Source of the DNA: a methanogenic archaeon mixed culture ISO4-G1
GTDB lineage: Archaea > Thermoplasmatota > Thermoplasmata > Methanomassiliicoccales > Methanomethylophilaceae
Assembly (NCBI GenBank): GCA_001563305.1
Contig: CP013703.1
Location: forward strand, 124,001-188,000
Direction of reading: 5' to 3'
Length of the DNA: 64,000 nt
In this document: piece by piece, positions 40,467-56,210 of the stretch
How the letters are laid out: each line of letters begins with the position of its first letter
Numbering within the stretch: position 1 is the first letter of the stretch
Position numbers and translations under genes: made by a program
The notes under the pieces: model-generated
Seen by the model: only the letters and a program-made list of their open reading frames with translations
Told to the model about the DNA's origin: nothing
Databases searched by the model: none

Positions 40467-41230
40467 GGCCCACAGGATTCATGATAGATATGGACGGCAC
40501 TGTCTACAAGGGCGGGGACCTGATTCCGGGCGCGACGGATTTCATCGCGGCGCTGAAGGCGAAGGGGATACCGTTCGTGTTCCTCACCAACAACTCTTCC
40601 CATTCTCGCTCGTACTACTATGAGAAGCTGAGGCGCATGGGTTTCGATGTGACGATCGACAACGTCCTGACGTCCAACATAGCCACATCCAGATTCGTGC
40701 TCAGCGAGCGTCCCGGGAAGAGGGTCTACGTGGTCGGTTCCCCCGATGTCACGGAGGAGGTCAGGGCCGCCGGCGTGGATGTAGTGGAGGACGATCCGGA
40801 TATCGTGTATCTGACATTCGACCGCACGATCACGTATGAGAAGATCAACAGGGCGTTCAAGGCCCTTAGGAACGGGGCGGAGCTCATCGCGACGCACCCT
40901 GACGACGTGTGTCCCACGGAGACCGATTACGATATCGACATAGGGCCGTTCATAAGGATGTTCGAACAGATGTGCCAGACCACCGCCGTGGTCATAGGGA
41001 AGCCCAACCGTCTGATGCTCGAGATGGCCGCCTTGGAGATGGGCGTCGACCCCAACGGGACGGTCATGGTCGGCGACCGCCTGTACACGGACATGAGGAT
41101 GGGCGTGGACGCCGGCACGGACACGATCCTCGTTCTCTCGGGGGAGACCAGCAGGGAGGACCTTGAGGCATCCGACATCAGGCCCACGTACGTTTTGGAT
41201 TCCGTTGCGGATATACCAGGTCTACTGTGA
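40463..41230 (+). CDS. HAD-superfamily phosphatase (NagD/IIA type)
   Basis: This 255-residue protein has motif I D-M-D-G-T-V-Y at residues 9-15, motif II T-N-N-S-S near 43, a C2-type cap, then G-K-P-N motif III and V-G-D-R-L-Y-T-D motif IV near 200. Family members dephosphorylate small molecules such as nitrophenyl phosphate, glycerol phosphate or 2-phosphoglycolate. The substrate is not predictable from position, as the neighbours are DNA repair and SMC genes. It overlaps the glycosylase gene by four bases. Confidence 0.85.
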   Translation: MRPTGFMIDMDGTVYKGGDLIPGATDFIAALKAKGIPFVFLTNNSSHSRSYYYEKLRRMGFDVTIDNVLTSNIATSRFVLSERPGKRVYVVGSPDVTEEVRAAGVDVVEDDPDIVYLTFDRTITYEKINRAFKALRNGAELIATHPDDVCPTETDYDIDIGPFIRMFEQMCQTTAVVIGKPNRLMLEMAALEMGVDPNGTVMVGDRLYTDMRMGVDAGTDTILVLSGETSREDLEASDIRPTYVLDSVADIPGLL

Positions 41231-41291
41231 GCCTGGCCATAGACGGTCACATTTTCCCGGTACGGGATAGCCAAGTGCTCCGTCAATCGAC

Positions 41292-41307
41292 GTTTATTTA
41301 TATATTA
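41292..41307 (+). promoter_or_regulatory. TATA box of the smc-scpAB operon
   Basis: TTTATTTATATATTA lies about 95 nt before the GTG start. The resulting leader of about 65-70 nt contains a CACGC/GCGTG hairpin near 41331-41342. Confidence 0.5.
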
Positions 41308-41397
41308 CGACGCGCATCCAATATTATCACGCGCGTAAGCGTGTGGTATGGGATGCAAGGGACCGTCAGGTCAATTGCCCTCTGCGGAGGGAATCGG

Positions 41398-44300
41398 GTG
41401 CACTTAAAACAAGTCGAAATGGAGAATTTCAAATCGTTCGGCGGTAAGGTCACTGTACCGCTGATGGAAGGTTACACGGCAGTCACGGGACCAAACGGTT
41501 CCGGTAAGTCGAACATAACCGACGCCATCCTCTTCGTCCTGGGACCCAAGAGCCCCAAGGCCGTCCGTGCGGGAAGGCTCACCGACCTGATCTTCGACGG
41601 AGGCAAGAGCAAGAACAAGGCCTCGTTCATGAAGGTCTCCCTCGTGTTCGACAACGCGGACAGGATCATGCCGTGGGACGCCGACGAGGTCAAGCTCACC
41701 CGTTACATCAAGATGTCCGACAACGGACAGGACTACAGCTCATACTTTTACATCAACGACCAGAAGTCCACCCTCACCGAGTTCGACAACCTCCTCACGA
41801 AGGCGAGGATCAGCGCGGAGGGATACAACCTGGTCCAGCAGGGGGACGTCACTCACATTGTCCAGATGGGGAACACCCAGAGGAGGGGAATCCTCGACGG
41901 CATATCCGGTATCGCCAGCTTCGACGCGGACATCGACAAAGCCGAGGGCGAGAAGGCAGAGGCCGGGGCGAACCTGGACAGGATCAATATCGTCGTCACC
42001 GAGCTATCCCAGACGGTAAAGAAACTGGAGAAGGACCGCGAGGCGGCCCAGAGATACGTCGAGCTTAAGGACACGCTCGACATGGCCAAGGCGCAGTACT
42101 CCCACAGGAAGCTGCAGATGAGCGAGGCGGCCAGGGACGCCCAGGCACAGCAGATAGAGAGGATCGAGAAGGAGATCCAGGAGGTCCTCGCTAAGAAGGC
42201 GGAACTCCAGACGGCACTGCACGACAAGGACCTGGAGATCGAGGCCAAGGTCGACGAGATCGCCGCGAAGGCCGGTCCCGAGTACAAGGAGCTCAAGAAG
42301 AAGATCGAGGACACCCTCGTGGAATACGCCACGAGCAAGGACAGGAAGGAGAGTGCGGAGAGCGATCTGGAGGAGCAGGGCACGTTCAAGGCCAAGTTCG
42401 AGGAGTCGATGAACGACAACGTGAACCAGATCAGCGCGCTCGAGGAGACCAGGGTCGCCCTGAAGATCGACCTGGACGCAGCGGAGGAGGAGAGGAAGGC
42501 GCAGACCGCCGAGGAGGCGAGGGTCTCCGACCTCATATCCAACACCGGCGGGGAGCAGAAGGAGCTCCAGGAGAGGCTGGAGAAGCTGGAGGCCGATTCC
42601 ACCGAGTGCTCCGGCAAGCTGCTGACGGCGCAGGGCAGGTTCTCCAAAGCGGAATCCGCATCGGACGAGGCGCACGGGAGCTGCGCAACCATCGACGAGA
42701 GGATCCAGAACATCGATTTCGAGATCAAGGACGCCAAGTGGACCCTGGACCAGATGAAGTCCGAGGCCGGCCCCAGCGTCGAGGACTACACCGCCAAGGT
42801 CATGGAGCTGAGGAAGAAGGAGTCCGAGCTGGAGAAGCAGGAGGTCGACCTCAACGGCGCCTACCGTAAGATAGACGAGGAGTACAAGGCCCTCCAGGCG
42901 GAGAAGAAGGTGTCCGACAGGATGAACCAGAGCAGCATGGCGGTGGATGCCATACTGGCACTGAGGAACAGGGGCGAGATGCCCGGAATACACGGCACGA
43001 TCCAGGAGCTGGCAACGGTCGACGAAGGTTATGAGACTGCTCTGTCCGTCGCCGCCGGAAACAAGATGCAGGCCGTGGTCGTCGACGACGACCAGGTGGC
43101 CGCGGACGCGATAGCGTACCTCAAGAAGGAGAAGCTGGGAAGGGTCACCTTCCTGCCGCTCACCAAGATGATGGGCGGGAAGCCCAGGGCCAAGGCCATC
43201 ATGAGCGAGAAGGAGTCCGAGGGATACGCGATCGACCTCATCGATTTCAACCAGAAGTACTACAACGCATTTTGGTACGTGCTCGGCGATACCCTCGTGG
43301 TCAAGGACATGGACACCGCCCGCCGCATAATGGGCGGAATAAGGATCGTGACCAAGGCGGGAGAGCTCATAGAGGCCTCCGGTGCCATGGTGGGAGGTAC
43401 CATCAACCAGCAGAAGATGCTGAAGTTCGGTGCGGCCTCCGAGGACAAGCTCACTGATCTGGGCGAGAAGCTCAGGAAGGCATCGGACGCCTTGGATAAC
43501 CTAAGGCAGGAGCTCAGGAACGTCCGCGACCAGATCCGCAACGTGGACGATCAGATGAGGAACAGCGCCTCGTCCGGAATGGAGCAGAGGGAGAAGGTCG
43601 CCGCGCTGAAGGCGCAGATAGGCGAGCTGGAGAAATCCAAGAAGGGTGCCCAGCAGTCCCTCCAGGACGCCAGGGAGAGGATGAAGGCCGCCGACGAGGA
43701 ACTGGCCGAGGCCAGGAAGGAGTTCACATCCCTCTCCGACAGGATGTCCTCCTTGACCGAGGAGAAGAACAAGGTCAAGGACCGCATAGCGGAGATAGCT
43801 CCGGCGGACCTGCAGGCCAGGATCCAGAAGGTCCGCGGGGACATATACAACCTGAACAACACGATCTCGGACCTCAACAACCAGATCCGCGGTGCGGAGA
43901 CCGAGATCCAGGGTCTCAAGAAGCAGAACGAGTCCTTGCAGATGCAGCTGGACTCCGTCATGAAGGCCATCGACGAGGACAACACCGCCATAGCGTCCAA
44001 CACCGAGCAGATGCAGCGTTTGAAGATCGACCTCGACGCGCTGCGCGCGATCGAGGCTGAGATGGAGAGCGGAATCGACGACCTCCGCACCCAGAAGGAT
44101 GCGCTCACCGCCGAGAAGTACCAGATCGAGAACGACATCAGGGAGGCGACGACGAAGGTCGAGAACGACCAGGCCTCCAAGCAGACGTTCATGGCCCAGC
44201 TGGAGATCATCAAGCAGCAGATTGTCCAGTTCAGGGAGGAGGTCGACGCCATCACATTCGAGGTGGCCCAGCCCATACCCTCCGAGGAGGAGATCAAGCG

Positions 44301-44979
44301 CACCATCAGGTCCTGCGAGAACACCATCGCGCAGTTAGGGAACGTGAACCTGCGCGCGATCGAGGACTACGACGAGAACAAGGCCCGTCTGGACGCCCTC
44401 AACGAGCAGGTGGACGCGCTCAACAAGAACATAGCGGAGCTCACCGCCCTCACCGACTCCCTGAAAGGGAAGAAGAAGGGGCTGTTCATGGAAGCCTACA
44501 CGGCGGTGGACGAGAACTTCAAGAAGATCTACGCCCAGCTCTCAGGAGGAGGGGAGGCGTACATGGCGCTGGAGGATGAGGAGGACCCGTTCAACGGCGG
44601 TCTCATAATCAACGCGAAGCCCAGGAACGGGAAGCTCCTGAGGCTGGAGGCGCTCTCCGGAGGGGAGAAGTCCCTCACGGCATTGTCCTTCATATTCGCG
44701 ATACAGGAATACCAGCCCTCGCCCTTCTACGTGCTGGACGAGGTCGACATGTTCCTTGATTCGGTCAACTCGGAGATGGTGGCCCACAGGGTCAAGGAGA
44801 GCTCCGGAAAGGCACAGTTCATTCAGGTGTCCCTGAGGAAGGTCGCATTGGCGGTCGCGGACCAGCTGATCGGCGTCACCAGGCCGCCTTCAGGCATCAG
44901 CAAGATCATAATACAGCCCGATCTGGCTGAGGTCTCGAAATACGAGGAAGAGGCTGTAGAGAACAAAGAGGCGATCTGA
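41398..44979 (+). CDS. smc: Chromosome segregation ATPase SMC
   Basis: This 1193-residue SMC protein has Walker A G-P-N-G-S-G-K-S-N near residue 32. Two long coiled coils flank a hinge at about 515-660 (G-I-H-G-T-I near its start, V-V-V-D-D-D-Q inside). The C-terminal ATPase head carries L-S-G-G-E-K-S and V-L-D-E-V-D. It forms ring-shaped condensin-like complexes with the two following proteins. GTG 41398 follows GGAGGG and gives the usual H-L-K-Q-V-E-M-E-N-F-K-S-F opening; the frame is open further upstream but the encoded residues are unlike SMC. Confidence 0.96.
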   Translation: MHLKQVEMENFKSFGGKVTVPLMEGYTAVTGPNGSGKSNITDAILFVLGPKSPKAVRAGRLTDLIFDGGKSKNKASFMKVSLVFDNADRIMPWDADEVKLTRYIKMSDNGQDYSSYFYINDQKSTLTEFDNLLTKARISAEGYNLVQQGDVTHIVQMGNTQRRGILDGISGIASFDADIDKAEGEKAEAGANLDRINIVVTELSQTVKKLEKDREAAQRYVELKDTLDMAKAQYSHRKLQMSEAARDAQAQQIERIEKEIQEVLAKKAELQTALHDKDLEIEAKVDEIAAKAGPEYKELKKKIEDTLVEYATSKDRKESAESDLEEQGTFKAKFEESMNDNVNQISALEETRVALKIDLDAAEEERKAQTAEEARVSDLISNTGGEQKELQERLEKLEADSTECSGKLLTAQGRFSKAESASDEAHGSCATIDERIQNIDFEIKDAKWTLDQMKSEAGPSVEDYTAKVMELRKKESELEKQEVDLNGAYRKIDEEYKALQAEKKVSDRMNQSSMAVDAILALRNRGEMPGIHGTIQELATVDEGYETALSVAAGNKMQAVVVDDDQVAADAIAYLKKEKLGRVTFLPLTKMMGGKPRAKAIMSEKESEGYAIDLIDFNQKYYNAFWYVLGDTLVVKDMDTARRIMGGIRIVTKAGELIEASGAMVGGTINQQKMLKFGAASEDKLTDLGEKLRKASDALDNLRQELRNVRDQIRNVDDQMRNSASSGMEQREKVAALKAQIGELEKSKKGAQQSLQDARERMKAADEELAEARKEFTSLSDRMSSLTEEKNKVKDRIAEIAPADLQARIQKVRGDIYNLNNTISDLNNQIRGAETEIQGLKKQNESLQMQLDSVMKAIDEDNTAIASNTEQMQRLKIDLDALRAIEAEMESGIDDLRTQKDALTAEKYQIENDIREATTKVENDQASKQTFMAQLEIIKQQIVQFREEVDAITFEVAQPIPSEEEIKRTIRSCENTIAQLGNVNLRAIEDYDENKARLDALNEQVDALNKNIAELTALTDSLKGKKKGLFMEAYTAVDENFKKIYAQLSGGGEAYMALEDEEDPFNGGLIINAKPRNGKLLRLEALSGGEKSLTALSFIFAIQEYQPSPFYVLDEVDMFLDSVNSEMVAHRVKESSGKAQFIQVSLRKVALAVADQLIGVTRPPSGISKIIIQPDLAEVSKYEEEAVENKEAI

Positions 44980-44980
44980 T

Positions 44981-45850
44981 ATGGATGGGAACATAAGGAT
45001 TGAGGATCTGGAGCAGCACCTGCTGTTCCACAAGGCTATGACGGAGAACACGGAGACCTATCAGAGGATAGGCGGATACATGGACATCCTGGCGAAGGCC
45101 GAGTCCGGGGAGAGGCTCAACGACCCCGTGGACGAGGCCATCAGATCGGTGTTCAGCCTGGTCCTGGAGAACGGGATTGACCCCTGGGAGATAGACCTCT
45201 CCGAGTTCGTGAGACTGTACAACTCCAAGGTGGTGAACGACACCTTCGACATGATCGTCGCCGGGAAGCTGATGCTGATGGCGTGGAAGATCCTGAGGAT
45301 GCAGTCGGACTCCACCAGGAACCTGTCGGAGCCCCCGGTCGAGGAGGTCGAGGAGTTCGTGGATGACGGGTTCTTCTACGAGGACGAGGAGACCATGGTG
45401 GTCCCCGAGGTCATGCTGACGGGAGCGTTCAGGAGGGAACCCATGCGCCCGGTCACCATGTACGAGCTGATCGACGCCTTCGAGGAAGCGAGGGTGGAGA
45501 TCGAGATCCAGCAGGAGAGGGAGCGCGTAAGGTCCCAGCTGAAGGACAAGATCCCGACGAAGTTCGACAACAAGGCCCACGAGGAGGACGACCAGAGGGA
45601 CGTCGAGGAGGTATGGGAGAGAATCCAGAGGCTCGGTACCGGACAGATCTGTATTGAAGATTTGTACACGACAGACCTGAAGGAGAACCTGAAGACCTTC
45701 GTGTCCGTTCTGCACCTGGTCAGGCTGGGACGCCTGGACGTCTGGCAGGAATCCCTCCCCTACGGGGACATCTACGTGGAGATCATGACCGAGGGCGTGT
45801 CCGGAACGATAGAGGACAACCCCGGCGGACGCATCGAAGCGGTGATGTGA
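44981..45850 (+). CDS. scpA: Segregation and condensation protein A (kleisin)
   Basis: This 289-residue protein has G-I-D-P-W-E-I-D-L near residue 65, the kleisin N-terminal helix, an acidic middle and a C-terminal winged-helix region. It bridges the SMC heads. It starts one base after smc and overlaps scpB, the standard smc-scpA-scpB order. Confidence 0.9.
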   Translation: MDGNIRIEDLEQHLLFHKAMTENTETYQRIGGYMDILAKAESGERLNDPVDEAIRSVFSLVLENGIDPWEIDLSEFVRLYNSKVVNDTFDMIVAGKLMLMAWKILRMQSDSTRNLSEPPVEEVEEFVDDGFFYEDEETMVVPEVMLTGAFRREPMRPVTMYELIDAFEEARVEIEIQQERERVRSQLKDKIPTKFDNKAHEEDDQRDVEEVWERIQRLGTGQICIEDLYTTDLKENLKTFVSVLHLVRLGRLDVWQESLPYGDIYVEIMTEGVSGTIEDNPGGRIEAVM

Positions 45851-46368
45851 TGGACCCCAAGGGTGCGGTGGAGGCGGCGCTGTTCTCGGCATCCGAGAAC
45901 CTGTCCGTCTCGGACATCGCGGAGAAGACCGGGATCCCGGTGGAGGAGGTCCGCACCGCGGTGATGGATCTGCGCAGGGAGTACGAGGCGCGCGATTCCG
46001 CAATACAGATCGCCAGGATCGGCACCGAGTACAGGATGATGCTCAGGCCGGAGTTCTCCGAGTGCACCTCGACGTTCTCCAAGGCGGAGCTTACCGGAGG
46101 GGCGCTCAGAACATTGACCACAATCGCCTATTACCAGCCGGTGATGCAGTCGAAGCTGTTCGATCTGAGAGGTCCGAGGGTGTACGATGACGTGCATACC
46201 CTGGTGGACATGGATTTCGTGTCCAGGAAGAGGGCGGGCAACACCTGGGAATTGACCACCACCAGGAAGTTCGCCGATTACTTCGGTATCGGCAGCACGA
46301 GGATCAAGGACATCCAGGCGTGGATCGAGAAGAACGCCAAGAACCTCGGGTCCGAGAAGAAGCAGTGA
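45850..46368 (+). CDS. scpB: Segregation and condensation protein B
   Basis: This 172-residue protein is predicted to consist of two winged-helix units: A-A-L-F-S-A-S-E near the N-terminus, then L-R-T-L-T-T-I-A-Y-Y-Q-P near 96, R-G-P-R-V-Y and F-G-I near the end, all ScpB features. It dimerises and clamps ScpA. ATG 45850 overlaps the scpA stop. A hairpin terminator follows directly. Confidence 0.92.
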   Translation: MDPKGAVEAALFSASENLSVSDIAEKTGIPVEEVRTAVMDLRREYEARDSAIQIARIGTEYRMMLRPEFSECTSTFSKAELTGGALRTLTTIAYYQPVMQSKLFDLRGPRVYDDVHTLVDMDFVSRKRAGNTWELTTTRKFADYFGIGSTRIKDIQAWIEKNAKNLGSEKKQ

Positions 46369-46428: not shown

Positions 46429-46541
46429 GCCAGACATTTTTTGTGTTAATGAAAGGCAATTACTTAACATTAAGTCAATCAATGAAAACCATTTTGAGAT
46501 TTTTTTGAACGTATAAAACCGCGCTGAACATGGAATGTAAC

Positions 46542-46967
46542 ATGAGCGATGAAGTGAGGACCACGATACCTCTCTCCAAAAGTTTGCGCAACGGCGCCGA
46601 AAAGGACGAGAGGGGGGGGGGGGCCGAGGTCTCGTACGAGGACCTTCCGGAGGACGTGAAGGCCTTCCTGAAGGAACGCAGGTCCGGATCGTCCGGAAAA
46701 GATGTGCTGGGACTCATCCAGAGCAAGCACATGCTGTCCCTCATAGATTACATCGACAAGCATTCCCCTGTGATCAAGACGGACATCTACGCGAACGTCT
46801 CCAGATGCTCCAACATGAACACCAAGATCCAGAACCTCATCGACATGGGGATCATCAAGGTCTACAACACCGCCTACACGAACACCAATGTGGTGGTCAT
46901 CACCGAGAAGGGCCGCAGGGCAGCAGGGATCATCCACGAGCTGGTCAGTGTAATCGAATCCGATTGA
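46542..46967 (+). CDS. Winged-helix transcriptional regulator-like protein with a 12-G coding tract
   Basis: This protein of about 141 residues has a flexible N-terminus containing R-G-G-G-A encoded by twelve consecutive G. A winged-helix domain follows (L-I-D-Y-I-D-K-H-S-P-V-I-K-T-D-I-Y-A, then N-L-I-D-M-G-I-I-K-V-Y near residue 105 and an I-T-E-K-G-R-R wing). It resembles small archaeal MarR/ArsR-like regulators; the targets are unknown. The TATA box at 46512 implies a leaderless start at ATG 46542 (ATG 46530 is possible). Any gain or loss of one G would shift the frame before the DNA-binding domain. Confidence 0.75.
   Translation: MSDEVRTTIPLSKSLRNGAEKDERGGGAEVSYEDLPEDVKAFLKERRSGSSGKDVLGLIQSKHMLSLIDYIDKHSPVIKTDIYANVSRCSNMNTKIQNLIDMGIIKVYNTAYTNTNVVVITEKGRRAAGIIHELVSVIESD
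46612..46623 (+). repeat. Homopolymeric tract of 12 G
   Basis: Twelve G lie in the coding region of the winged-helix gene. Such tracts slip during replication and are classic phase-variation sites in bacteria. A sequencing error in run length is also possible. Confidence 0.85.
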
Positions 46968-47028
46968 ACCTGTTCATCTTTTGTGTATGCGGTACGCTGA
47001 TGCCATGCGCATCGGCGTGCATGATTTG

Positions 47029-47048
47029 TTTATGGCTCCATAAATATT
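47029..47048 (+). promoter_or_regulatory. TATA region and palindrome upstream of the surface-protein gene
   Basis: TTTATGG and CCATAAA (47029-47044) form a palindrome with a two-base centre. It runs into the AT-rich CATAAATATT that I take as the TATA box of the giant gene. Transcription near 47070 would leave a leader of about 190 nt. Confidence 0.4.
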
Positions 47049-47126
47049 CTCCTTTCCTACCTTTTTTAGACCACCCTATGGACGGACGGGAATTTAGGGG
47101 CCCGTATGATGGAAGTGGAGAGGTCG

Positions 47127-47216
47127 GTACGGTAAAAGGCCCGCAGGACCCTTGTTAGGGAGAAGGTCCTGTAGGAGCTGACCGAGGATTTTCGACATCG
47201 ACCGCGAAAGCGATCA
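47127..47216 (+). promoter_or_regulatory. Structured leader of the surface-protein mRNA
   Basis: The leader holds nested helices: TCGGT with ACCGA outside, CAGGACC (47144-47150) with GGTCCTG (47165-47171) inside. A small CGC-GAAA-GCG hairpin with a GNRA loop follows near 47200-47211. AAAAGGAG precedes the ATG. The 293-bp gene-free stretch holds no convincing small gene. This could be a cis-acting regulatory RNA or an mRNA stabiliser; no known class was recognised. Confidence 0.4.
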
Positions 47217-47260
47217 ACCCGATTCAGTGGCTGAGTAGCCGTGAAAAGGAGAATTGAAAT

Positions 47261-50200
47261 ATGAATACAAAAGGAACAAAATTCCTTGCAGTCTTGGCTG
47301 TTCTGGCTATGGCGTTCGCTGCGTGCGCAGTAATTTCCTCTGTTGAGGAGAACGATGCGGTCGCATTGGACCCCAGTTTGGCCTTTATTCCAACAGTCAA
47401 TGAGGAAAAGGATCCGTTCATTGCTACAGCAGGCGCGACATATACCCTGTCTGCAGATGGAAAGATCGTTAATGACGCCGATGATACAGACAAAGGTGTC
47501 TGGACTAACGGAATTTATCTTGGGGACGGAGATTTGACCCTGAACGTCAAGAACGGAGATACCATCAATATGAAGACAGATTATTATGGAATCTTCGTCA
47601 GCGGAGCACTCACTATCGGATCCACCGCAGGAGATAGCAAGACAACCAAACTCTCAATTGAGATTTCCAAAGAAATCACACCTGTGAGGATGAGCGCTTT
47701 TGCTATTGCTTCGTATGGAGCGATGACAATTTCCAATGTCAATCTCGATCTTAAGACGAATGCAACATCCACAACTGCAAGTGGAAACCAGAGTACAGGA
47801 ATTTACTCCTGGAACACACTTGCGATTACTCTCGATTCAACCCAGAAAGCGGACATCTATGGTGGAAACCGCGGAATTATGGTTGTCGGAGCAATCACTT
47901 TGAATGGTGGAACATTCAATGTCGGTGGATATGAGGTCGCTATCGTCGGACAGGCAACACTGACCATTGGAAACACTGCTGCAACAACTGTTAATGCAAA
48001 GCTGCTGACTGGAAATGGACTTAATGGAAACGGCGACGAAGTAAGGTTTGCTACAAAAGTCAAATATGCAGGTGGACAAGTTACCGTTGGTAATGGAACC
48101 CTCGCAAACACGGTCAATACACAGGGACTATGGGCAAAACTTGAGTCAGACGTTACTGCGAACTCCAAACTTATCGTTACCGGTGGATATGAGCAGACCA
48201 CCAACAGCAATGGAATTACCACTGCTGGGCTGTACATCGAAGGCGCAGAGAACCCTGCTGCTGCGAAGGTTGCAGTTGTCAACTCAGCATCTGCCGCTGC
48301 TGCTGGAATAACCAGTGTGGTTAAGGGTGCAGACATCTACAAGTACATTGTAGAAGGTTATTCCGCAGAGGCAGCAGCCTCAGCATCTGGAACAGCGTTG
48401 CAGGAAGCTATCAATACAGCAGCGACAGCTTCAACAGAGGTCGTCTACGCAACAACAACGGCAACGGACTTCTCCAGTGCTAACAAGGTTGTAATCCCTG
48501 ATAACAAGACTGTCATACTCACCCTCCCCGCAGAGAATGTTTCTGGAGAGATTGATGTCAGTAAGGCAGCTGAGTTGACTGTTAACTCATTCCAGTCATC
48601 TGCTGGAGTTACCTTTGTTGGAAAAGATGGAGCGAAAGCAACCATCAAGGCAACGGGTCCTGCAACATTTACTGTAGAGAAGGGTTCAGTCATCATCAAG
48701 GATATCACAACGGATGCAGCTCTTACTGTTGCAGTTGATGGAGATTTCAAGATTGAAGGAGTCGTTTCTGGAGCTGGAACCGTTACACTTAACAAGGCTG
48801 CCGGAGCGACCGGAGCAAAGATCACTATCGCAGACAAGCTCATCAACAACGGATCTATCGCAGTAAACGGACTTCCAGTATTCATTACCGGTGATCTGAA
48901 CATTGGAAATGGAAAGACATTCACTACCGATGCAACTGCAACCGTAGAGATCACTGGAAACGTTGCTGGATTGGGAACGATCGTCAATGCCGGTACTGTT
49001 GACATCAAATCCGGAGCAGTTGTATCATCCAAGATCACCCCTACCGGATTGGTATCGATATACACTGGATCCGACGTCAACAAAATGACCGTAACCGCTG
49101 GATGGGCAAACATCATCGGAAAGGATGATGCTTCTGGAAAGTGGACATTTGATGACAGTGCAGCAAAGACCCTCACACTTGACAACTACAATGGAACTTA
49201 CAACTTCAAGCCCCTTGCTGATGTTGTGAAAGAGATCGTCCTCATCGGAACCAATGTCGTCTCCTACGAGGCAGCGGCAGATTACGTAGCAGGATCGCTC
49301 TTCGGAACAGCTCTGGTCAACATCACCACCGATGCGACAGCAGGATCCCTCGAGATGAATGTTGACCTTTCCAAGGCAACAGGCGCTGCACTCATTGCAG
49401 CCAAGTCGTCCGTGTTCAACTCTGCGACAACTCTGGGAATCGATGAGGTTTACCTGACGGTTACCATCACTGGAAGCAACAATGCATGGACCGCAGATCA
49501 GAAGGCAGCATTCCAGATCGTCGCAATCAATGCGGCAGCCGGAATTAACATGCTGAACTCCGCCGTTATTATCGACAACATGTCGAACCTGACAGCAGTC
49601 GGCCTCTCTGATATTTCTGCATTAGATGTGACACAGAAGGCAACATTCGTCGAAGCAGCCGGAAACATCAGCGCAACAACATCCTACGCAGTGTCCAACA
49701 GTTCATCACTAGAAGTGGCCGGACTCATGTACGCTGGCGGTTTCTCCAATAAACAGGAGTCGTCCGTTACTGTTAACAAACTGATTCTTGCTGGAGATTC
49801 ATCCAACAACGCAGAGTTGACTGTAAACGGAGACTCATACGTTACTGGCGGATTCACCAACAACGCGACATTCACCAACAACGGAACCATGACGGTCATT
49901 GGAGCAACTGGAATTATCCAGAAGGCTGGAACGTTCACCAACAACGGAACCATAAAGGTCCCGGCAAAGTACGTCCCCGTCGGATTCGATGGACAGGCAA
50001 TCACAATCACCAACAACGATATGCCCGACACCGAGAAGGTCGTCAAACTGAAATCCATCACCATCGACTCCACCGCTCTGATTCAGGCCGGTGTGAACGA
50101 TGTGAAGGCCAACGTTACTGCAACCGTAGTATTCGAGGCATATAATGCAGGTGCTGGTAACAGAGCACTTGCAGGAGATGCAACATACACCGGAACACTC

Positions 50201-53200
50201 GCAGTCAACCAGACCGGAACCGGATACACGCTCTCCATCACAAGCACAGCAAACCCCACTGCAGAGATCACTGTGACCTACGACTCTACCAAGACTGGTT
50301 CAAAGATCGGAGGACAGTATGCGGTTACCGTTAAGGGTTCCGTCATCGATGCGGGTGACGGGGACAAGTCTAAGACCGTTGCTGTAGTCACCCCCAAGGC
50401 TGATGCAGAAGACGGAGACGTCGCTGCAGACACAGTCCTTGAAAAGATCACCGCATCGGGAGCAAACGCTGCGTCGCTCTCAGTGACCGGTGGAAAGTTC
50501 GCTAACACCTCTGATGTCATCGTATCCTCAGGTGCAGCTGCAATTCTCGCAGCAGATGCAGAGTATGAGGGTAACCTCACAACCGATATCGCTAATGTCA
50601 CACTCGCAGGAACTTTCAATGGAGACCTGACCGCTAACGGAGCAGGACTCGTCACCATCAGCGGAACCATGGATGGTAGCGTCGTCGCAAAGGGCGATGT
50701 CACCATCAGCGGAACCATGGAAGGAAATGTTACCTCGACCAAGACCGCAGCCGACCAGACTGTTACAGTTAGTGCTGATGGAACTCTCAAAGGAGATATC
50801 ATCACCAACGGAAACATCGCTATCGGAAAGAAGTTCGCCGGAAACATCACGATGAACAACTCGGCAACTACCAAGTCCATCACAGTTACCGGTGAGATTG
50901 ATGCTACTGTAACCTACAACACCCTGTACAAAGCAACCAAGGATGCTACTGAAAAGACCGCCTATTCTGCATCAGCAAAGATTGTAGGAAAGGCAGTAAG
51001 CGTCATTGTGAATGCCCACGTAGGACAGGACGCTGTCGATGAGATCCCCGTCAAGGCAGGATACTTCTCGTTCAACAGCGTGTTCGAAGACCAGGGAACG
51101 AAGGAGATTGCAGTCACTGCACTCACCGGAACTTTCGGAGTCATCGATGAGAACATCACCCTCAAGGCTGGAATCGCACTCTATGTTGAGCCTGGAGCCA
51201 CCCTCGAGGTCGAGAAGACAAAGGTGTTCGATGTCCAGAAGGGAGCACTCAAAGTTTCAAAGGACGCAGTCAGGAACTACGAGGATGCCGAAGCAGATGT
51301 CTACGGTCTCGTGACATATGTCATGAAGTTCGACACCAACGACAACTACACCGTCTACTCCAACATCGCATTCGCACTCAGCAATGTCGATGAAGGAAAG
51401 GATCTTACTGTGGGAGTCGCAGCCGAGATCGAGCAGAATGTTGTTGTGAAGAAGGGAGTTAACATCATCGTCGATGACGTTCTCCTCAACTTCGGTGCAT
51501 TCGCACTCGAGATGGGAGAGGGTGCAAAGATCACTCTCCTCAAGGCAGGAAACCTCAACTTCGACATCACCCCCGAGGGTAAGTACATCAACGGTACCAT
51601 CGTCTACGATGGAAACACCATCGTACTCGACAAGGTCGGATTCTCTGTGGCAGGAAATGTTGTTGCGGGAATCGAGCCTCTTGATGATGAGCCTTCGAAG
51701 ATCAACGCTGTATTCACATATGATGAGGGAACAGTTACAGTTAAGGCAGGAGTCCTTGCAGGTTCCTTGACCCTTACCAACGTTTCCTACGGAGAGCCCG
51801 CTGTCAAGTACAGTGCATCACTTGTTATCGACGCGGACACCGTATGTGAGGCAGTTGTTGATGATACCGCTTACACCGGAGCAGCCAACAACAAGACCGC
51901 ACTGGAGACCAACGTCACAGTCAACGGAACCCTGAAGGTCGCAGCAGCTCTGACGATCGATGGAAAATACACTGGTGACGGAGCAATCGTTCTCGCCAAC
52001 GATGCTTCCGTATCAGTTTCCGTCGACAAGGCAGTCGCGTCTGTTAAGATCGTCGATGTTGCAGGAAACGGATACGTCCTTGATACGATCACTCCTGACA
52101 CAAATGCAATCGTTGTGACTGCAAAGAAGGTCGGAGATGTTCTGTACGTTGTCATCGGCGGACAGTACGAGAAGGGAACCATCACCGCAATCGGTGAAGC
52201 CAACCTCGATGATTTCATAGTGATGGCCGGAGCAACATTCGTTGCGGATTCTGCAAAGATCGCAACCACAGCGGTTGCGAACGGACTGCTCAAAGTCAAG
52301 ACGCCCATCGAGGATACTGCAGGACTCACCTTCGAGGCCACTTTCGTCGATGGAGATTACACGGTGTACACGACCCTTGCATACATCAACGCCAACATCG
52401 AGGAACTCGGAATCACCGAGCTCAAACTCGACAACGGATTGAATGTTGCGGATGCTGCACTTGATTATTCGAAGATCACTGCAGACATCACCATCCCTGC
52501 TGGAAAGTCGATCACGGTTAACAATGGAAAGCTCATCCTCGGAGCACCTGCAACTTCACTCGGAGCATCTCAGGTTCTCAAGGGAGACATCATCATCACT
52601 GGAAACGGTTACGTGATTGTATATGCAACTGTGGACAACCAGGCAAACTTCTACGGAATTGCTGACAAGTCCAAGGCGGCAACGTACTCCACTTTCGACA
52701 TCGAGGGAACGGCCTACGCAACAGTGTATGGATCTAACCCCGCTGCAGACAACAAGCTTGATGATGCAGCAGCCGACATTGTACCTAGCATCACTGGATA
52801 CACATTCACAAGATGGGAAGCGTACAACAACCCTGGAGAACCTCTCGAGAATGTTAATATCGGAAGCACCAATGTCACCGCTTCGCTCGTTGCTGGTAAG
52901 GTTACCATCACCATCAAGGGAGTCGAGGGAGTCACCTACTACCTCGATGGAGTCGAGTACCTGACAACCGACCTTGCAACCAAGGTCACGGTCGGTTCAG
53001 TCGTCACCATGAAGATCTCCGATACCTCCAAGTATCAGGGAACACCCAAGATCGACGGCAAGACCAACTACGTCGTCTCCGGAGACTCAGATGGAAAGAC
53101 CATCACCGCAACCGGAGTCTCACCCGTTGAGCCCGAGCCCGCACCCGCACCGGCAGGAATGTCCCTGACCGAGATCCTCCTGATCGTCCTCGTCGTCCTG

Positions 53201-53248
53201 ATCGCCATCATGGTGGTCATCATCGCGCTGAGGCTCAACAGGAGCTGA
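47261..53248 (+). CDS. Very large secreted, membrane-anchored surface protein (adhesin-like)
   Basis: This 1995-residue protein starts with a signal peptide (charged start, hydrophobic L-A-V-L-A-V-L-A-M-A-F-A-A, small residues before the likely cut near 35). It ends with a Pro/Glu/Ala linker (P-E-P-E-P-A-P-A-P), one strongly hydrophobic helix and R-L-N-R-S, so the body is outside and held by the C-terminal helix. The body is Thr/Asn/Ala/Gly/Val-rich, with many short I-x-G/N-G-T strand repeats suggesting a beta-helix. Near 1850 a G-Y-T-F-T-R-W-E unit resembles Listeria-Bacteroides repeats. It is much less GC-rich than its neighbours, as surface proteins often are. Adhesion or cell-envelope roles are likely; the ligand is unknown. 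Confidence 0.85.
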   Translation: MNTKGTKFLAVLAVLAMAFAACAVISSVEENDAVALDPSLAFIPTVNEEKDPFIATAGATYTLSADGKIVNDADDTDKGVWTNGIYLGDGDLTLNVKNGDTINMKTDYYGIFVSGALTIGSTAGDSKTTKLSIEISKEITPVRMSAFAIASYGAMTISNVNLDLKTNATSTTASGNQSTGIYSWNTLAITLDSTQKADIYGGNRGIMVVGAITLNGGTFNVGGYEVAIVGQATLTIGNTAATTVNAKLLTGNGLNGNGDEVRFATKVKYAGGQVTVGNGTLANTVNTQGLWAKLESDVTANSKLIVTGGYEQTTNSNGITTAGLYIEGAENPAAAKVAVVNSASAAAAGITSVVKGADIYKYIVEGYSAEAAASASGTALQEAINTAATASTEVVYATTTATDFSSANKVVIPDNKTVILTLPAENVSGEIDVSKAAELTVNSFQSSAGVTFVGKDGAKATIKATGPATFTVEKGSVIIKDITTDAALTVAVDGDFKIEGVVSGAGTVTLNKAAGATGAKITIADKLINNGSIAVNGLPVFITGDLNIGNGKTFTTDATATVEITGNVAGLGTIVNAGTVDIKSGAVVSSKITPTGLVSIYTGSDVNKMTVTAGWANIIGKDDASGKWTFDDSAAKTLTLDNYNGTYNFKPLADVVKEIVLIGTNVVSYEAAADYVAGSLFGTALVNITTDATAGSLEMNVDLSKATGAALIAAKSSVFNSATTLGIDEVYLTVTITGSNNAWTADQKAAFQIVAINAAAGINMLNSAVIIDNMSNLTAVGLSDISALDVTQKATFVEAAGNISATTSYAVSNSSSLEVAGLMYAGGFSNKQESSVTVNKLILAGDSSNNAELTVNGDSYVTGGFTNNATFTNNGTMTVIGATGIIQKAGTFTNNGTIKVPAKYVPVGFDGQAITITNNDMPDTEKVVKLKSITIDSTALIQAGVNDVKANVTATVVFEAYNAGAGNRALAGDATYTGTLAVNQTGTGYTLSITSTANPTAEITVTYDSTKTGSKIGGQYAVTVKGSVIDAGDGDKSKTVAVVTPKADAEDGDVAADTVLEKITASGANAASLSVTGGKFANTSDVIVSSGAAAILAADAEYEGNLTTDIANVTLAGTFNGDLTANGAGLVTISGTMDGSVVAKGDVTISGTMEGNVTSTKTAADQTVTVSADGTLKGDIITNGNIAIGKKFAGNITMNNSATTKSITVTGEIDATVTYNTLYKATKDATEKTAYSASAKIVGKAVSVIVNAHVGQDAVDEIPVKAGYFSFNSVFEDQGTKEIAVTALTGTFGVIDENITLKAGIALYVEPGATLEVEKTKVFDVQKGALKVSKDAVRNYEDAEADVYGLVTYVMKFDTNDNYTVYSNIAFALSNVDEGKDLTVGVAAEIEQNVVVKKGVNIIVDDVLLNFGAFALEMGEGAKITLLKAGNLNFDITPEGKYINGTIVYDGNTIVLDKVGFSVAGNVVAGIEPLDDEPSKINAVFTYDEGTVTVKAGVLAGSLTLTNVSYGEPAVKYSASLVIDADTVCEAVVDDTAYTGAANNKTALETNVTVNGTLKVAAALTIDGKYTGDGAIVLANDASVSVSVDKAVASVKIVDVAGNGYVLDTITPDTNAIVVTAKKVGDVLYVVIGGQYEKGTITAIGEANLDDFIVMAGATFVADSAKIATTAVANGLLKVKTPIEDTAGLTFEATFVDGDYTVYTTLAYINANIEELGITELKLDNGLNVADAALDYSKITADITIPAGKSITVNNGKLILGAPATSLGASQVLKGDIIITGNGYVIVYATVDNQANFYGIADKSKAATYSTFDIEGTAYATVYGSNPAADNKLDDAAADIVPSITGYTFTRWEAYNNPGEPLENVNIGSTNVTASLVAGKVTITIKGVEGVTYYLDGVEYLTTDLATKVTVGSVVTMKISDTSKYQGTPKIDGKTNYVVSGDSDGKTITATGVSPVEPEPAPAPAGMSLTEILLIVLVVLIAIMVVIIALRLNRS

Positions 53249-53449: not shown

Positions 53450-54760
53450 ATGATGCTGCTCGCCGGAAGTAACACCGTCAAAGGAACCATCAACGACGGG
53501 ATGGATGTGGAGTTCGCCCTCAGGCTCGGGAAGTTCCTGGGGAAGCACTACGGGTCCCCCCTGGCAATAGCGATGGACGGCAGGACTTCCAACATAATGC
53601 TGAAGTCCGCCATATCCGCGGGGATCATGGCCGTCGGTTGCAACGTGCTCGACCTCGGCGCGGTGCCCACACCGCTCATCCAGTACTACATGTCGAAGCA
53701 TCCGGAGGTGAAGGGTGCTCTGACGATCACGGCATCCTTCGCCGGCCAGGAGATCAACGGGATCAGGCTGATGAAGGAGCTGGGCATCGAAGATCCAATC
53801 TTCGAGGAGCACACGATCGACGAGATCACGGCCATGAATGACCAAGTGCCAGCATCGCAGGTCGGCGAGATGATCAAGGTCGAGGACATCATCGAAGGAT
53901 ATCTCGACACGATCCTCTCGGGGATAGACGTGGAGGCGATCCGCAAGGCCAAGCTGAAGGTCTGCCTCGACTGCCGCAACAACGCCGTCGCTTCGATAGT
54001 CTCCAACATGTTCAACAGGCTCTCCGTGGATACGATCATCCTCGGAGGGGACACGTCCGTCCTGGACAGCGACAGGGTCGCCAAGCTCGGCCACGTGGTC
54101 AAGAGCCAGAAGTTCAATCTGGGTGTGGCATTGGAGATGGACGCGGACCACTGTCTCTTCGCGACAGCGAAGGGAGAGGCGGTGCCCGGGGACAAGAGCT
54201 TCGCCGTGTTCGCTAAAGCTCTCCTTGCAGAGAAGAGGGGCAAGGTCGTCATCCCGATCAATTCCTCCACGCTGATGGAGGACGTCATCAACGAGAACGG
54301 CGGGATAGTGCTGCATTGCACCATAGGTGAGCAGAGCGTGGTCAAGAAGACCAAGGAGAACTTCGCCGTGCTGGGAGGGGACATCTTCGGCTGCATGGTG
54401 CTCCCCAACGAGCTCACCACATGCGACGCGATATACGCCACGGCCAAGATGCTAGAATTGGTGGTCAAGAACGGCCCCCTGCACAAGCAGATCGCCGACA
54501 TGCCTTCTTACTTCATATCAAGGGGTTCCAAGCCCTTCCCCGAGAACAGGATCCAGGACGAGCTCGACAGGTTCAAGAACGCCCATTCCGATTAGGAGAT
54601 GGACCTCATAGACGGGGTCAAGGTGTTCTGCGAGAACGGCTGGGTCATGATGCGCCACTCCAACGTCAGGAGTGTCATAAAGGTGTACGTCCAGGCCGAT
54701 TCCAAGAAGCAGGCCGACCAGTGGGTCCAGGAGACCCTGGACGGCATCGGTCAGGAATGA
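53450..54760 (+). CDS. Phosphohexomutase-like protein with in-frame UAG (putative pyrrolysine) before its last domain
   Basis: Read through TAG at 54593-54595, the frame gives about 436 residues, normal for phosphomannomutase/phosphoglucosamine mutases. Domains 1-3 lie before the TAG. The C-terminal domain 4 lies in the same frame after it (D-G-V-K-V-F, G-W-V-M-M-R-H-S, V-Y-V-Q-A) and ends in TGA. Every other complete gene I support here stops with TGA or TAA, as expected where UAG encodes pyrrolysine. Residue 382 would be Pyl. The active-site loop reads T-A-S-F-A-G instead of T-A-S-H-N-P, the metal loop is E-M-D-A-D-H, and the phosphate loop is altered, so mutase activity is doubtful. If UAG stops, the product loses domain 4. 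Confidence 0.65.
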
Positions 54761-54761
54761 T

Positions 54762-55637
54762 TCATTCCCTGTTCTTGCCGTATACGGCGATGGCCTCGTT
54801 TATCAGCCTAGCCGCGAGTATGGATGTTATCCCAGACGGGTCCGCCGGAGGGCACACCTCGCAGACGTCGAATCCGACCAATCTGTCGCCTACGGCGTTG
54901 ATGACCTTCTTGACATCGTAGGGCGTGAGCCCGAAGGGCTCGGGAGTACCCGTTCCCGGCGCGTACGCCGGGTCTATGCCGTCGATATCGATCGTCAGAT
55001 AGATGTGCTCGTTCTGAACGGAATCTAGCGCCTTCTTTATCGCCCAGTCTATGCCGTTGTCGAAGACGTCGTAGGAGCTCACAAAGGGGATGACATCGTC
55101 CCTGTCAAGCTCCTCCTCGCCTATGGCGCGGCAGCCGATCACGAACGTGTTCTCTATGCCTACGTGCTCCGCGGCCCTCCTCATGATGCACGCGTGGCTC
55201 AGAGGGGTGCCGATGTACTCGTCCCTGGAATCCAGGTGGGCGTCTATCGAGATCACTGCGATATCATTGGCATCGAAGTTCCTTATCACCGGGATGTTGA
55301 CGGAATGTTCCCCGCCGATGGTGATCGGGAACTTCCCGTCCCTTATCGCGGGTCCTACGGCGAAATCGACCTCCTGGATCATGTCCTCGGGAAGCACGAA
55401 GTCATCAACGTTCCCGTAGTCGTAGATCGCAGGCAGATCCTGGTGGATGCCGTGCTCGAAGTGTATCTCCTCAAAATTATAGGAGGCCCGCCTTACGGCG
55501 GTGGGTCCCTCCCTAGCGCCTGCCTTAAAGCAGGCGGTATGGTCATACTGGACTCCGAATATGACGACCTCCGACTCCTCGTATTCAGAGTCAGCACCAG
55601 CATATCCGAGTCCGTATGAGATTTTACCAGTCCTCAC
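54762..55637 (-). CDS. speB: Agmatinase-family ureohydrolase
   Basis: This 291-residue arginase/agmatinase family protein has metal motifs G-G-E-H-S near residue 108, D-A-H-L-D near 132 and D-I-D-G-I-D-P-A-Y-A-P-G-T-G near 214. These are the positions of the Mn ligands (the first motif has E where D is usual). It removes urea from agmatine or an agmatine-modified substrate. Its start overlaps the end of the aIF5A gene by four bases. In archaea such as Haloferax an agmatinase linked to aIF5A takes part in deoxyhypusine formation, so that role is likely here too. Confidence 0.88.
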   Translation of the reverse strand: MRTGKISYGLGYAGADSEYEESEVVIFGVQYDHTACFKAGAREGPTAVRRASYNFEEIHFEHGIHQDLPAIYDYGNVDDFVLPEDMIQEVDFAVGPAIRDGKFPITIGGEHSVNIPVIRNFDANDIAVISIDAHLDSRDEYIGTPLSHACIMRRAAEHVGIENTFVIGCRAIGEEELDRDDVIPFVSSYDVFDNGIDWAIKKALDSVQNEHIYLTIDIDGIDPAYAPGTGTPEPFGLTPYDVKKVINAVGDRLVGFDVCEVCPPADPSGITSILAARLINEAIAVYGKNRE

Positions 55638-56011
55638 ATGAACTTGTATCTGCCCATGGCGTTGATGTACAGGACTTCGGCTCCCTCCTCAATCTTCTGC
55701 TCGGCGTCGTCGTTGATGACGATGGAGAGGTTCTCGAAGGTTTCGAGGTCCATGACGAGGGCCTCCTCGCCTGTGATGGACAGGATCTGTCCTTTCCTCT
55801 TGTCGATGATGGGGACCTGGACTTTTGTACTGACAGGTCCAACGATGGATTTCTTTGCTCCGGTGAAGATGCTGACCGCATCGATGTTCGCCTTTGCGGA
55901 TCCGTGCTTTCCGGGCTTGGATGTCGTGATCTTGACGATCTTACAGGGTTCCTCGTCAACGTTGACATACCTTCCCTCTTTCAGCTCTCTGATCTCTTTC
56001 ATTTCCCACAT
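55634..56011 (-). CDS. eif5a: Translation initiation factor aIF5A
   Basis: This 125-residue protein has an N-terminal SH3-like domain bearing the hypusination loop S-K-P-G-K-H-G-S-A-K near residue 32-41, where the central Lys is modified, and a C-terminal OB fold. aIF5A relieves stalled ribosomes. ATG 56011 gives the usual W-E-M-K-E start and sits about ten bases after AAAGGAT; GTG 56020 is possible. The agmatinase gene follows with overlap. A TATA-rich region near 56132-56148 suggests a leader of about 100 nt. Confidence 0.95.
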   Translation of the reverse strand: MWEMKEIRELKEGRYVNVDEEPCKIVKITTSKPGKHGSAKANIDAVSIFTGAKKSIVGPVSTKVQVPIIDKRKGQILSITGEEALVMDLETFENLSIVINDDAEQKIEEGAEVLYINAMGRYKFM

Positions 56012-56210
56012 TGGTTTCACTATCCTTTGGATTATTCGATCCAGCTCATGGCCGGTTGTTCACATCGTTGATTGATGCGAGCACATGCAAGCCGTATGAT
56101 TCTACTGACCTCATGTTATCTGGCTACGCTATCGTCTATAATAATTATAATAGTATTGGACGCGCGCGTCTCATCTCGTACAGTTTGTCATCATCGGATG
56201 ACCGTCTTTT

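Follow-up and report, generated by a model that had tools for sequence, protein, structure and literature searches.

The methanogenic archaeon ISO4-G1 belongs to the Methanomassiliicoccales, comes from the sheep rumen, and has a single-contig genome of 1,593,503 bp (PMC4824259). One of its genes, a member of the phosphohexomutase family, carries an in-frame TAG ahead of its last domain. Does this codon end the protein, or is it decoded as an amino acid? We analyzed the locus within a 64,000-nucleotide stretch of the genome, referred to below as the window; a preliminary description of that stretch had suggested that the UAG is read as pyrrolysine. TAG usage was surveyed in ~30% of the genome (the window, the pyl locus L039, and 20 further stretches; sampled by stretches, not tiled), and orthologues were sought in 102 genomes of the family.

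The interrupted gene and the protein it encodes

The frame that opens at the ATG of the mutase-like gene is uninterrupted up to the TAG and runs on from there to a TGA at 54758-54760 (Table 1). The continuation to TGA had been reported before with 53 sense codons; the correct count is 54. The 54-residue piece after the TAG, searched alone, matched PF00408, the PGM/PMM domain IV of Pfam (E 1.6e-7), and the Arch_GlmM score of the protein rose from 252 bits up to the TAG to 304.5 bits with read-through. Frame reading, domain match, and score gain together confirmed that a C-terminal domain follows the TAG in the same frame, and such homology continuing in frame across a UAG is what is expected of pyrrolysine-containing proteins. 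The complete protein has the four-domain order I-II-III-IV of the alpha-D-phosphohexomutase superfamily. Of the three domains previously placed before the TAG, I and III exceed their Pfam cut-offs and II lies only just below its own (26.4 bits against 29.3).

A long open frame beyond a stop codon is common in itself: 28% of the genes ending in TAA or TGA are followed by at least 53 open codons, and for 8.5% of these genes the open frame has a coding score of at least 20, probably mostly from neighboring genes. What lifts the mutase-like gene above chance is thus its match to domain IV, together with an alignment to the orthologues that needs no gap. None of the remaining called genes in the window ends with TAG, as the preliminary description had also observed.

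Table 1. The mutase-like gene, its parts, and its neighbors, in window positions
Feature	Position	Strand	Basis or remark
Gene of the phosphohexomutase family; 436-residue product if UAG 382 is decoded	53450..54760	+	Translation with TAG as a residue; Pfam and NCBIfam matches; end-to-end orthologue alignment
Domains I-III, codons 1-381	53450..54592	+	PF02878 E 1e-19 and PF02880 E 1.7e-13 (both above cut-off); PF02879 E 1.1e-5 (slightly below cut-off)
In-frame TAG, codon 382, probable pyrrolysine codon	54593..54595	+	Variable linker between domains III and IV; sense codons in orthologues
Domain IV, 54 post-TAG codons	54596..54757	+	PF00408 match of the piece alone; GC3; divergence as in intact orthologues
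ATG right after the TAG, rejected as an independent start	54599..54601	+	Abutting AGGAG; an intact orthologue has the motif within its coding sequence
SMC-like gene, ahead of scpA/scpB	41227-44979		Window ORFs
scpA and scpB, recognized from their proteins	44981..46368	+	Window ORFs; conserved upstream neighbors in orthologous loci
1,995-aa adhesin-like repeat ORF, between scpB and the mutase-like gene	47261..53248	+	Window ORF
Agmatinase/arginase-family gene, convergent	54762..55637	-	Conserved downstream neighbor
aIF5A-like gene	55634..56020	-	Conserved downstream neighbor

The protein resembles archaeal GlmM and other alpha-D-phosphohexomutases (TIGR03990; PDB 1WQA, 9DU5, 2F7L) in its domain order and aligns with them end to end. 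It differs from archaeal GlmM in its read-through score, which falls short of the 439-bit equivalog cut-off of TIGR03990, and in all four active-site loops; the normal GlmM of the genome (L008) scored 531.5 bits, above the cut-off. Where working mutases have TASHNPP, DGDADR, GEENG, and RPSGTEPIFR, the protein and its clade have TASFAGQ, EMDADH, GDIFG, and RHSNVRSVIK, so that none of the loops that mark an active GlmM (TASHNP for phosphoserine, DGDxDR for metal, GEENG for sugar, RPSGTEPxxR for phosphate) is retained. The degeneracy of the loops had been pointed out earlier, and it holds for the whole orthologous clade, whose members share the altered loops with small variations. The loop changes thus precede the TAG. 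The protein is probably not a working mutase but a relative of archaeal GlmM that has been repurposed and is either altered in its catalysis or inactive; our own reading is that of a repurposed sugar-phosphate-binding or pseudo-mutase protein.

In most orthologous loci with enough flanking sequence, the mutase-like gene lies between scpB and genes for an agmatinase-family protein and aIF5A. A two-gene insertion at window positions 46530-53248, which includes the adhesin-like ORF, parts it from scpB in ISO4-G1. This insertion is absent at the orthologous locus L040, where scpB is immediately ahead of the mutase-like gene. In this genus, the altered-loop GlmM-like clade (window 53450-54760; L010-L017) adjoins SMC-ScpAB, which is a small puzzle separate from that of the TAG.

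Pyrrolysine machinery and TAG usage in ISO4-G1

A single locus (L039, genome 655000-664000) carries tRNA-Pyl(CUA), pylS, pylB, pylC, and pylD, and the profile matches of PylS, PylB, PylC, and PylD all exceed curated cut-offs. The search for pyl genes suggested in the preliminary description hence returned a complete set (pylT, pylS, pylB, pylC, and pylD). The pylS at this locus corresponds to the C-terminal domain only, and its product matches PDB 8IFJ, the ISO4-G1 enzyme, with 100% identity across 273 residues; this enzyme is in use with tRNA-Pyl as a pair for genetic code expansion. Directly upstream of the pyl genes lies a methylamine methyltransferase gene that itself has an in-frame TAG. 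The genome also contains one full aRF1 gene, which makes partial termination at UAG probable.

UAG was rare as a terminator in the sampled part of the genome, as is expected of an organism that makes pyrrolysine proteins. The 367 ORFs called in the sample ended with TGA (326), TAA (29), or TAG (12); these counts are approximate, as the simple gene caller yielded some spurious ORFs and some 5' TAGs upstream of true starts. In 9 of the 12 TAG-ending ORFs, the frame goes on for at least 48 codons, and at most ~2 TAGs are credible terminators among ~340-370 called genes in ~30% of the genome. With TAG treated as a sense codon, ~10 genes in the sample had coding sequence on both sides of it, and Pfam domains span the TAG in MttB, MtbB, an amidohydrolase, and a UvrD-like helicase. 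TAG cases in L047 and L058 look like wrong-frame ORFs. The sampled numbers are in agreement with the ISO4-G1 genome paper (PMC4824259), which counts 25 pyrrolysine proteins and assigns 9 of these to the methylamine methyltransferases.

The amidohydrolase (L043:13079-14368; genome C1:233079-234368), a gene of 429 codons, offers the clearest comparison: its codon 131 is TAG, and orthologues with 87-93% identity use CAG or CAA in that place. It is a stronger pyrrolysine case than the mutase-like gene. The UvrD-like helicase (L049:16111-19068; genome C1:716111-719068) has two in-frame TAGs, at codons 689 and 763, and a second copy in ISO4-G1 (C1:813250-816087) has one; in three further genomes of the genus, homologues are likewise interrupted by TAG and never by TAA or TGA. 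A GlmM from a different genus of the family (L075; G017:C26:6037 onward), with its active-site loops intact, carries an in-frame TAG at residue 76, a position occupied by tyrosine in most homologues. These three cases indicate that in-frame TAG is tolerated widely in the family.

Further in-frame TAGs were seen in an S15 peptidase gene (L053:17533-19842), in a gene for an uncharacterized protein that weakly matches a zinc ribbon (L051:11508-12344), and, twice, in a gene for a repeat-containing, probably surface protein (L046:1523-3370). A phosphomannomutase-like gene (L076; G083:C16:12359 onward) has an apparent TAA at codon 6, possibly due to a start called too early or to an assembly error.

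The TAG site in orthologues and competing readings

Close orthologues were found in eight genomes of the same genus; they share 53-63% identity with the ISO4-G1 protein (closest ~62%) and align end to end. They represent seven distinct sequences, those of L011 and L013 being nearly identical. None of them has an in-frame stop, and at the position of the TAG they carry AAG, GAG, TTC, AGC, or GTG. In the tree, the nine sequences form one fully supported clade, with TAG on the ISO4-G1 branch alone. The homologue alignment that the preliminary description had called for thus gave a sense codon at the site and a domain IV that is neither lost nor frameshifted. Alignment with 1WQA placed position 382 in a hypervariable linker between the last helix of domain III and the first strand of domain IV; it was used in place of an AlphaFold2 model built from a two-sequence alignment, which had a pLDDT of 34. 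The UAG is hence neither conserved among the homologues nor at a functional residue, and neither property is required of sporadic pyrrolysine proteins. A scan of genome contigs yielded the L010 orthologue alone and hence no second strain of the species. On this alignment and tree, the change to TAG is specific to the lineage and lies at a site that tolerates substitution.

Domain IV has diverged no faster in the ISO4-G1 gene than in the orthologues and shows no sign of decay. Relative to domains I-III, its divergence at first and second codon positions is 1.33 for the ISO4-G1 gene and 1.17-1.44 for the intact orthologues, and GC3 goes from 0.85 ahead of the TAG to 0.89 beyond it. A nonsense mutation of very recent origin would give the same picture. 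A true stop at UAG, leaving only a 381-residue protein of domains I-III and a recently orphaned remnant of domain IV, would fit the restriction of the TAG to the ISO4-G1 lineage and the presence of one full aRF1. With its mutase loops lost, the protein might do without domain IV, the source of the phosphate loop in active mutases, and truncation could be harmless because a normal GlmM is encoded elsewhere in the genome. We nevertheless regard this reading as unlikely: TAG is nearly unused as a terminator in the sample while in-frame TAGs are common, and domain IV has undergone no acceleration, frameshift, or loss of GC3. A split gene, in which translation stops at the UAG and restarts at ATG 54599 to make a separate 53-residue domain IV that assembles with domains I-III, draws on the position of this ATG one codon past the TAG with an AGGAG ahead of it. 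The AGGAG touches the ATG with zero spacing, and the surrounding AGGAGATGGA recurs as coding sequence (Lys-Glu-Met-Asp) in the intact orthologue L010/L040, so that the motif descends from ordinary coding sequence, did not evolve as a ribosome site, and was not selected as a start. As UAG is also not normally a stop in ISO4-G1, restart is very unlikely, in line with the doubt expressed about it from the outset.

The presence of the TAG in one assembly only, against seven distinct orthologues that lack it, might raise the suspicion of an error in sequencing or assembly, or of a variant that is transient in the strain. Errors of 454 sequencing are mostly insertions and deletions. Reads from 454, MiSeq, and Sanger sequencing went into the finished genome (PMC4824259), and an exact substitution to TAG in a genome rich in TAG-containing frames is more simply explained as biological; an artifact or transient variant is extremely improbable. 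Pyrrolysine supply, which is tied to methylamines, could instead make the UAG a regulatory switch that sets the ratio of short to full-length protein, as pyrrolysine insertion needs running synthesis and partial termination is plausible. Such a switch has a very small likelihood, given that TAG occurs in no orthologue although a full PylS is encoded in seven of the eight genomes (and a PylS fragment, lying at a contig end, in the remaining one) and that no RNA element was detected downstream of the UAG (fold z = -0.24). A recoding element is reported not to be obligatory for pyrrolysine insertion (PMC4153887). The broader idea that pyrrolysine supply sets the amount of a domain-IV-containing repurposed mutase near SMC-ScpAB, and so couples methylamine availability to the function of this protein, is just as improbable.

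UAG 382 is very probably read as pyrrolysine, a decoding to which the sequence evidence points. The whole is most likely, with high confidence, explained by pyrrolysine insertion at UAG 382 to give a 436-residue protein, with some termination, at a tolerated lineage-specific codon in a repurposed mutase relative. PylS would charge tRNA-Pyl(CUA), and insertion at the UAG would yield a four-domain protein of the phosphohexomutase fold; some chains probably end at the UAG, owing to the one full aRF1, as a minor 381-residue product. The TAG probably arose by point mutation of a sense codon in the ISO4-G1 lineage, in a hypervariable linker where almost any residue would be tolerated, and probably persisted as UAG hardly serves as a terminator there. 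It is very probably a tolerated lineage-specific substitution and not a functional innovation. Of the earlier proposal of a pyrrolysine-containing or UAG-controlled protein, the first part is supported by the pyl set and by the sense codons of the orthologues; UAG control or a special role of pyrrolysine finds no support at a site in a hypervariable linker.

Comparison with known pyrrolysine proteins

In MtmB, MtbB, and MttB, which are present in ISO4-G1, an in-frame UAG is read as pyrrolysine, as is predicted for the mutase-like gene. Pyrrolysine in the methylamine methyltransferases is a conserved catalytic residue, whereas residue 382 of the mutase-like protein is a non-conserved linker position. 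No published pyrrolysine-containing phosphomannomutase was found in the literature searched. With the mutase-like gene, a cultured rumen methanogen gains a well-supported, predicted member of its pyrrolysine proteome. The gene illustrates how such codons may originate, when a point mutation hits a tolerant site and the genome has nearly abandoned UAG as a stop, and standard gene calling truncates the proteins concerned.

Pyrrolysine outside methylamine metabolism, which we also infer here, had been presented in the preliminary description as more surprising than it is: it has been reported for ISO4-G1 itself (PMC4824259) and for relatives (PMC4153887, PMC5011839). The mutase-like gene is a sound but ordinary further case of what is already known for ISO4-G1 and its order. 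It shares with the other ISO4-G1 pyrrolysine proteins of this kind the genome, the pyl machinery, and an in-frame UAG in an unrelated gene; it is not named in the consulted text of the genome paper and may be among the 25 proteins counted there (PMC4824259). The sporadic pyrrolysine proteins of 'Ca. Methanomethylophilus alvus' (Cas1, MtxX, and digeranylgeranylglyceryl phosphate synthase; PMC4153887) and those of ISO4-H5 (PMC5011839) are alike in having UAG in one species against sense codons in homologues, in genomes where UAG is rarely a terminator. They belong to other protein families, the ISO4-G1 case being a GlmM-like alpha-phosphohexomutase paralogue; the 46 pyrrolysine genes of ISO4-H5 include a bifunctional phosphoglucose/phosphomannose isomerase (PMC5011839). 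The same logic was proposed for 'Ca. M. alvus' by Borrel and colleagues, in whose view a constantly active pyrrolysine system makes an in-frame amber codon a stable mutation (PMC4153887).
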